In this document: positions 1,208-3,759 of the stretch, piece by piece
How the letters are laid out: every line of letters starts with the position of its first letter
Numbering within the stretch: the first letter of the stretch is position 1
Assembly: GCA_028289965.1 (NCBI GenBank)
Contig: JAQGKS010000095.1
Location: 1-35,532 of the forward strand
From: Sphingomonas bacterium
GTDB taxonomy: Bacteria > Pseudomonadota > Alphaproteobacteria > Sphingomonadales > Sphingomonadaceae
DNA length: 35,532 nt
Reading direction: 5' to 3'
Notes under the pieces: model-generated
What the model saw: the letters and a program-made list of their open reading frames with translations, nothing else
Database searches by the model: none
What the model was told of the DNA's origin: nothing
Program-made: the position numbers and the translations under genes

Positions 1208-1472
1208 CCAGCAAGGGGTCGGGATAGCGAACTCCTTGAGGTCGCGATGCGAAGATGTTCATGCGCTTTGCGATGCGAGAAGAGCGGCGTTGCGCCTTCG
1301 CCGACGCAAGCGACGGCTTTGTCGCAGGGTGGAGGATGTGCATCGCCGGTGCGGGGCTGTCGGTTCCTGGAGCGGGTCGCCCGGCCGCTTGGTTTCCCAT
1401 CTTCTTTTGCACTTGCGAACAAACGCGCGATGCGAAATGCTCCAGGGAAGGCAGGCGCTCTCGCTTGCCGCG

Positions 1473-1530
1473 AAGGCGAACCCCAGCGCCGGGGCCAGCC
1501 TTTTCCGACGCCATACAGCAACGCCGCTGT
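1473..1530 (+). promoter_or_regulatory. Two-hairpin ANTAR-type (NasT-like) antitermination RNA element
   Basis: Two small hairpins with six-base loops lie in tandem in the leader of the channel gene. The first has stem CCCC/GGGG (1481-1484, 1491-1494) with loop AGCGCC, extended across an internal loop by AAGGC/GCCTT (1473-1477, 1498-1502). The second has stem ACAGC/GCTGT (1515-1519, 1526-1530) with loop AACGCC. Both loops have A at position 1 and G at position 4, the signature known for RNA bound by ANTAR-domain antiterminators such as NasR, NasT and EutV. The 3' arm of the second hairpin is part of the 5' arm of the terminator at 1523-1572, so the two structures exclude each other, as that mechanism requires. 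No ANTAR protein is encoded in this window. Confidence 0.75.
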
Positions 1531-1572
1531 TCGACCTGTCGCTCCCGCGACAGGCCGAACCGCGGCTTTTTT
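1523..1572 (+). terminator. Intrinsic terminator in the leader of the channel gene
   Basis: Arms 1523-1542 and 1547-1566 pair over 20 positions with only two mismatches, closing a four-base TCCC loop, and six T residues follow at 1567-1572. It lies 30 bases before the ATG at 1603, so it should stop transcription before the gene unless the overlapping hairpin at 1515-1530 is stabilised. This is a regulatory attenuator rather than an end-of-gene terminator. Confidence 0.85.
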
Positions 1573-1602: not shown

Positions 1603-2919
1603 ATGCGAACCGGTTACCGAACGCAAGCCCAGCATCGTCGGACGGCGCGCGGCCGACTTCATGGGGTTTCGGGCGGCGGCCGGAGACCGGCAAGCCGGAT
1701 CCACGGCGCGGCCGTCAAAGTCGCTCTCGGTGCGGCGACGATGCTGGGGGCTGGCGGGCCGGCGGCGGCGCAGGATCTGGTGCTCAAGCCCGTGCTGGAT
1801 GCCCGCGTGCGGTATGAGCATGTCGATCAGGCCGGTTTGCATCCCGATGCGAATGCGGTGACGGCGCGCGTTCGCGGCGGCGTGTCAGCCGAGGCCGGCA
1901 CGCTTTCCGGGCTGATGGAGGCGCAAGGGACGCTCGCGCCGGTGGGCCAATATTATGATGGACTGGAGGGCAGCGCGCCGCCGCCACTGGTCGCAGACCC
2001 GCAGAACATCGCGCTGTATCGCGCGCAGCTCCAGTACAAGAGCGGGCCGCTCGCGCTCACCGCCGGGCGGCAGCGTATCCAGCTCGATGATGAACGCTTC
2101 GTCGGTGCGGTCGACTTCCGCCAGAACGGCCAGACGTTCGATGCGGTGCGCCTGCAATATTCGGGAATGGCGAAGGTGAAGGTCGATCTCACTTATGCCT
2201 GGGGCGTGCGCACGATCTGGGGCATCGACGGCGGTGGCGCACGGCAGCAGGCGGCGTCGGGCGATAACCTCTTGGGCAATCTGAGCTATGCGACCCCGCT
2301 CGGAACGGTGACGGCCTTCGCCTATCTGGTCGATCAGGACGAAGCCGCGCTGCAGGGCTATCGCCTGTCCAGCCAGAGCTATGGCGGCCGCCTCGCCGGC
2401 GCGCATGCCTTCTCGGAGGGCGCCAAGCTTTCCTACCAGGCGAGCTTTGCCCGACAGGCCGCGTATCGGCGCAACCCCAACCGCTATCGCGCCAACTATT
2501 ACCTCGTCGACGCCGCGCTACAGCTGCGCGCGCTCAAGCTGGGCGCGGGCTATGAGGTGCTGGGCGCGGATCGCGGGGTCGCACTCACCTCGTTCCAGAC
2601 ACCGCTGGCAACGGCGTTCAAGTTCCAGGGCTGGGCCGACAAGTTCCTGACGACGCCGCCGAACGGCGTGCGCGATCTCTATGCCAGCCTCGGCTACAGC
2701 TTCCCCCAGGTCGGCCCGGCCAAGGCGGTCACGCTGCAGGCGGCCTATCACCGGTTCGACAGCGATCGGCTGAGCCAGCATTATGGAAATGAGCTGAACC
2801 TGCTGGCGAGCGCCAAGTTGGGGCGCTACACGCTGACGACCCGCTTTGCCGAGTATCGGGCGGAGCGGTTTGCCACCGACACCCGCAAGGCGTGGGTCCA
2901 GATGGACTTTGCGCTGTGA
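1603..2919 (+). CDS. Alginate-export-like outer-membrane channel
   Basis: The 438-residue protein resembles the alginate export (AlgE-like) beta-barrel family. The start at 1603 was chosen because AACGAGGATCGCC precedes it, it lies after the leader terminator, and an export signal with a long basic n-region ends in GGPAAAQD. The upstream in-frame ATG at 1255 would translate through the leader hairpins. The mature part begins LVLKPVLDARVRYEHV and carries the family pattern GRQRIQLDDERFVGAVDFRQ followed by TFDAVRL. It ends in a C-terminal strand closing on Phe-Ala-Leu (WVQMDFAL), usual for outer-membrane barrels. Family members next to HPP-type genes are common around nitrate assimilation loci. 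With the antitermination leader and the HPP gene downstream, I infer a pore for nitrate, nitrite or another small anion rather than alginate. Confidence 0.8.
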   Translation: MRTGYRTQAQHRRTARGRLHGVSGGGRRPASRIHGAAVKVALGAATMLGAGGPAAAQDLVLKPVLDARVRYEHVDQAGLHPDANAVTARVRGGVSAEAGTLSGLMEAQGTLAPVGQYYDGLEGSAPPPLVADPQNIALYRAQLQYKSGPLALTAGRQRIQLDDERFVGAVDFRQNGQTFDAVRLQYSGMAKVKVDLTYAWGVRTIWGIDGGGARQQAASGDNLLGNLSYATPLGTVTAFAYLVDQDEAALQGYRLSSQSYGGRLAGAHAFSEGAKLSYQASFARQAAYRRNPNRYRANYYLVDAALQLRALKLGAGYEVLGADRGVALTSFQTPLATAFKFQGWADKFLTTPPNGVRDLYASLGYSFPQVGPAKAVTLQAAYHRFDSDRLSQHYGNELNLLASAKLGRYTLTTRFAEYRAERFATDTRKAWVQMDFAL

Positions 2920-3015: not shown

Positions 3016-3759
3016 ATGTTCCGATGCAATAGCGCCGCGATGACATGGCTTGGCAGTTTCGGCGCGGTGGCATTGCAGACCAATTATCGCGAATGGCTTC
3101 GCGGCGCGATCGGGGTGCTGCTGGGCATCGCGCTGACCGGCGCGATCGCGACCGCCTGGTTCGGCTCTGCCAACGGATTGCCGCTGTTGATCGCCCCGCT
3201 CGGCGCCTCGGCCGTGCTGCTGTTCGGCGTTCCGGCCAGTCCGCTGGCGCAGCCATGGCCGATCCTCGCCGGAAACACGGTGTCGGCGGCGATCGGCGTT
3301 GCCTGCGCGCATGGCATCGGATCGCCGCTCGCCGCAGCCGCGGCATCGGTCGCCCTGGCGTTCGCGGCAATGTCCGTGTTGCGCTGCGTCCATCCGCCGG
3401 GCGGCGCGGTCGCGCTCAGCGCGGTGATCGGTGGTCCCTATGTGGCGCAGCTCGGCTATGAGTTCATCCTGGCGCCGGTGCTGCTGAACTCCGCGCTGCT
3501 CGCCATCGGCGCGGTGCTGTACAATAATCTCACCGGCCGATCCTATCCCCACCGCGCCCATGCACCGGAACATCCGCACCCCCCGCGCCGTACCGTGGTG
3601 CTGGAGGAGGAGGACTTTGCGGCGGTGCTGGCGGATTATGGCGAGACGCTCGACATCAGCCGCGAGGACCTTGAGGTGCTCTACCGCGAGTTGCTCGGTC
3701 GCGCCGAAAACAAGCGGCACGGTCCGGCGATGGTCGGACAGGGAGAGCTGGACCTCTGA
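3016..3759 (+). CDS. HPP-family integral membrane protein
   Basis: This 247-residue protein has about five hydrophobic segments in residues 30-175 and the family-defining His-Pro-Pro-Gly-Gly at residues 126-130. It also has the typical GASAVLLFGVPASPLAQPW stretch near residue 64. HPP proteins of cyanobacteria and chloroplasts transport nitrite, and bacterial ones often sit beside nitrate assimilation genes. The hydrophilic, acidic C-terminus (LEEEDFAAVLADYGETLDIS) probably lies in the cytoplasm. The gene starts about 95 bases after the outer-membrane channel and probably shares its transcript, so both would answer to the antitermination leader. The start is uncertain: ATG 3016 has only a weak GCAGG upstream, and ATG 3040 is an alternative without a visible ribosome binding site. 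The nitrite role here is inferred. Confidence 0.8.
   Translation: MFRCNSAAMTWLGSFGAVALQTNYREWLRGAIGVLLGIALTGAIATAWFGSANGLPLLIAPLGASAVLLFGVPASPLAQPWPILAGNTVSAAIGVACAHGIGSPLAAAAASVALAFAAMSVLRCVHPPGGAVALSAVIGGPYVAQLGYEFILAPVLLNSALLAIGAVLYNNLTGRSYPHRAHAPEHPHPPRRTVVLEEEDFAAVLADYGETLDISREDLEVLYRELLGRAENKRHGPAMVGQGELDL

Follow-up and report, generated by a model that had tools for sequence, protein, structure and literature searches.

The locus studied here raises the question of whether the leader in front of an outer-membrane porin gene, itself followed by a gene for an HPP transmembrane protein, is an antitermination switch of the ANTAR type, and if so, which regulator works it, in response to which signal and for how many genes. 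The window, that is the whole stretch of DNA analysed (35,532 nucleotides), is contig C111 of a 3.0 Mb draft genome of 301 contigs, 87% complete, whose gene content points to a sphingomonad. The features in and behind the leader are:

1413-1441, plus strand: predicted promoter, TTGCGA (1413-1418), 17 bases, AATGCT (1436-1441)
1450-1469, plus strand: P0, upstream stem-loop GGCAGGCG-CTCT-CGCTTGCC (hairpin statistics and fold)
1481-1494, plus strand: P1, first ANTAR hairpin, CCCC-AGCGCC-GGGG, loop with A1 and G4 (fold and helix covariation)
1515-1530, plus strand: P2, second ANTAR hairpin (antiterminator), ACAGC-AACGCC-GCTGT, loop with A1 and G4 (fold and covariation)
1523-1572, plus strand: intrinsic terminator, 20-position stem followed by T6 (fold and covariation)
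1603-2919, plus strand: outer-membrane porin of the alginate-export type, 438 aa (Pfam PF13372, E 2.2e-9)
3016-3759, plus strand: HPP transmembrane protein, 247 aa, with an alternative ATG at 3040 (Pfam PF04982, E 1.1e-49)

An earlier note on this DNA had described two tandem hairpins with the loops AGCGCC and AACGCC, a terminator stem of 20 positions, six T residues and a distance of 30 bases to the ATG, and this description was exact to the base. The 5′ arm of the terminator (1523-1542) pairs with 1547-1566, with 18 pairs over the 20 positions; the T6 tract occupies 1567-1572, and the porin ATG lies at 1603, 30 bases 3′ of it. G4 of the P2 loop (1523) is the first base of the terminator 5′ arm, and the P2 loop and 3′ arm are common to the terminator over bases 1523-1530, which makes the two structures mutually exclusive. 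The 121-base leader region folds with -54.3 kcal/mol (z -3.8), and none of 200 shuffles was as good. A scan of the 35.5-kb window for a pair of A1/G4 hexaloop hairpins, the second of them shared with a terminator, gave a single match, and 60 dinucleotide-preserving shuffles of the window gave none. No Rfam family reached its gathering score with the leader; the top family by bits, Scr3202 (22.5 versus a cut-off of 52), was rejected as a chance match to a hairpin-rich leader.

Transcription is expected to start near 1448. The 17-mer TTTTGCACTTGCGAACA (1405-1421), probably the -35 region of the promoter, recurs identically before the narK leader of the same genome (L002, 7093-7109), and the pattern TTG-N16/18-.A...T was present in 31 of 40 related leaders versus 22% in shuffles. 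The same 17-mer also precedes the nas leaders of three further loci (L037, L132 and L150). Divergent from the leader, on the minus strand at 1-770, lies a gene that by eye resembles an outer-membrane beta-barrel protein, with a polyproline tail running off the window.

To find further copies, nine leaders, all taken from other genomes, were used to train a covariance model (R1). In the genome studied here the window leader ranked first, with 65.3 bits (E 4.5e-15). Two further strong copies of the two-hairpin motif, for which the earlier note had proposed such a search, were found: one of 57.4 bits before nirB-nirD-nasA (C271:11289-11385) and one of 57.3 bits between nasS and narK (C93:7166-7264). 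As the genome is a draft in 301 contigs, the three leader units are seen on separate contigs and not on one. The next-best match elsewhere scored 24.3 bits; it lies at L112 2481-2547 (contig C151) and is shorter than the other leaders. Reverse-strand matches at the window leader were discarded as the palindromic terminator read backwards. The window leader is closest to the narK leader of its own genome (65%), and narK-type leaders rank above nirB-type ones; by sequence, the porin unit may have acquired its leader from a narK-type unit.

The presence of an ANTAR protein in the genome had been set beforehand as a test. Exactly one ANTAR-domain protein was found, NasT (E 1.1e-20), adjoining NasS: contig C93 carries the receiver-ANTAR protein, then the NMT1-type binding protein NasS, a leader and a NarK-family transporter. 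In an alignment of NasT with EutV, the residues R142, K143, K149, E160, Y164, R168 and M172 are all kept and K147 is replaced by R; the seven kept residues are ones through which EutV contacts the hexaloop in its crystal structure (PMC8934654).

Of 299 Sphingomonadaceae genomes, 29 carry a leader at E<=1e-6. An ANTAR gene is present in every one of these, versus 68 of the 270 others (Fisher 2.5e-16). With the threshold at E<=1e-5, a leader is present in 35 genomes, 32 of which also belong to the 97 with an ANTAR gene. Three genomes (G205, G274 and G276) gave weak leader matches of 33-34 bits and no ANTAR gene was found in them, from chance or a missed gene. The window porin is, by gene context, the orthologue of the porin in the nas clusters of relatives, where it stands behind narK. 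One gene order that recurs there is nasT-nasS-[leader]-narK-porin-[leader]-nirB; leader-narK-porin was found in many genomes, and nasT lies in the same stretch at 30 of 40 fetched porin loci. The earlier note had named conservation of the loops before orthologues as a test, and they are indeed conserved in related units. In G034, G099 and G029, three genomes from outside the genus, an A1/G4 dual-loop leader even stands directly before a porin, only 41-43% identical; the model scores of these leaders are modest (22-29 bits), and the P1 pairing is short in G034. In the one other genome of the genus examined, ANTAR gene, leader and porin were not found and HPP was kept (44% identity).

The helices also covary. 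Over 42 distinct leaders, 92% of the cells for P1 and P2 pairs are paired; double changes number 78, versus 27.6 in shuffles, and the covariation score is 0.454 versus 0.192; for the terminator it is 0.50 versus 0.16. The P2 helix lies outside the model, and its covariation is therefore independent. All 43 leaders have A1 and G4 in the P2 loop. In P1, G4 is kept in 40 of 43 and position 1 is A or G in about equal shares, in agreement with the structure, where A1 makes no contact. The ANTAR protein of the genome and the loops conserved before related units, the two tests set by the earlier note, support its ANTAR-type interpretation. Because of the R1 copies, the sole NasT-NasS pair, the co-occurrence of leader and ANTAR gene and the covariation, we conclude that a NasT regulon for nitrate assimilation has the porin, probably with HPP, as its third unit. 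The leader is real and well conserved, and its cargo is slightly unusual.

Folding of the nascent transcript suggests how the switch would work. A transcript reaching 1536 folds P0, P1 and P2. The form with P2 has -57.6 kcal/mol and that with the complete terminator -65.0 kcal/mol, a gain of 7.4 kcal/mol, and therefore termination would be the default and NasT must hold P2. When nitrate is lacking, NasT would be held by NasS and RNA polymerase would stop at the terminator (1523-1572). Once nitrate or nitrite is available, NasT would be set free and would bind the hexaloops of P1 and P2; P2 would then stay folded, the terminator could not form, and transcription would run through into the porin gene and probably on into HPP. 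The porin would pass nitrate or nitrite across the outer membrane, and HPP perhaps across the inner membrane. In Paracoccus, nitrate dissociates NasS-NasT and NasT binds the nasA leader (PMC3795266); the release step proposed here is carried over from that system. We put the probability that the leader (about 1448-1572) is a NasT-worked ANTAR antitermination switch for the porin, and probably HPP, with nitrate or nitrite as signal, at roughly 0.88.

The leader might instead be a plain intrinsic terminator with unregulated read-through, its hexaloops surviving as a relic of the rearrangement through which the porin left the neighbourhood of narK. The position of the porin apart from the nas cluster and the loss of G4 in P0 would agree with this; yet A1 and G4 are kept in both P1 and P2 with intact stems, the window leader scores best of the three in its own genome, and promoter element and leader alike are closest to those of narK, and we regard a relic as very improbable. 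Even less probable, in our judgement, is an ANTAR leader that answers to something other than nitrate or nitrite, whether another NasS ligand or another input. NasS matches only NMT1-type binding-protein families and its ligand specificity is predicted, but the same NasT must also serve narK and nirB-nirD-nasA, all of nitrate assimilation.

How far the switch reaches beyond the porin is less settled. The earlier note had named both the outer-membrane channel and HPP as controlled genes; the part on the porin is supported by the leaders before its orthologues, and that on HPP is made probable by position. HPP has no leader of its own and starts 97 bases 3′ of the porin on the same strand, with no terminator-like or promoter-like site found in the gap. 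The porin-HPP adjacency was seen in this genome only, among the genomes examined, and control of HPP is therefore argued from its place behind the porin. None of the HPP loci of relatives examined had a porin, nasTS, narK, nirB or a leader nearby. Scanning of genome contigs with HPP gave two distant loci only, neither with a convincing leader, and a sequence search for HPP relatives of solved structure found none. HPP may thus be a chance neighbour of the porin, and that the porin alone is controlled, with HPP transcribed separately in another role, is a substantial possibility that we rate below an even chance: the separate, leaderless HPP genes of relatives speak for it, whereas the short gap without such sites, and the nitrite transport by HPP relatives that is ascribed to Maeda (2014) in a citing passage of PMC4137279, speak for joint transcription. 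An envelope-spanning nitrate/nitrite import module of porin and HPP is plausible but unproven.

Related leaders often carry a third hexaloop upstream. In 40 leaders, 55 hexaloop hairpins were found 5′ of P2, 40 of them with a loop that starts with a purine and has G4; hairpins of this kind number 1.0 per leader versus 0.045 in shuffles, and two occur together in 13 leaders (examples at L039 7398-7497, L123 1501-1599 and L141 1501-1604). P0 of the window (1450-1469) is their counterpart, with the stem kept and G4 lost. Among the papers searched there was no three-hairpin ANTAR leader and no study of sphingomonad NasT, which does not prove that there are none. We tentatively suggest, as a reading that is rather unlikely to hold in full, that sphingomonad NasT leaders are three-hexaloop ANTAR switches with P0 as an earlier landing site for NasT, here also controlling an HPP carrier and so giving an outer-plus-inner-membrane import module for nitrate or nitrite.

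For the unstudied porin, these results make nitrate or nitrite the likely substrate and suggest a signal, and for a bacterial HPP protein they offer a testable regulatory link; members of the HPP family are known to transport nitrite in chloroplasts and in cyanobacteria. In the successive-binding model of ANTAR proteins, G4 is the sole base-specific contact (PMC8934654), and leaders that have a purine at position 1 of P1, and in many cases a third hexaloop, offer naturally occurring variation on which that model can be tested. The earlier note went too far in describing the known targets as chiefly enzyme operons, as nitrate/nitrite transporters are among those of Ramesh et al. (PMC3369931) and narK is one here. 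In the NasT regulon of Bradyrhizobium diazoefficiens, hairpins are likewise predicted in the leaders of nirA, narK and bjgb, and the text of that paper names neither a porin nor HPP (PMC6759348). AtNITR2;1 and the cyanobacterial HPP nitrite transporter (Maeda et al. 2014) belong to the same transmembrane family, judging by sequence, as the window HPP. The dual A1/G4 hexaloop and the P2 shared with the terminator are as in Klebsiella NasR-nasF and Enterococcus EutV-eutP (PMC3369931, PMC8934654); unlike in those, the P1 loop starts with either A or G in the related sphingomonad leaders, and whereas NasR itself senses nitrate and EutV is switched by phosphorylation, the regulator here is a NasS-NasT pair. 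The nasA leader of Paracoccus denitrificans, with hairpins tested by mutation (PMC5424462), resembles the present system in its nasT-nasS pair, leader hairpins with terminator and nitrate assimilation genes, but there a single leader precedes nasABGHC, whereas three were found here, one of them before the porin and HPP. The type of switch is already known, and its predicted use for a porin-HPP pair is new.
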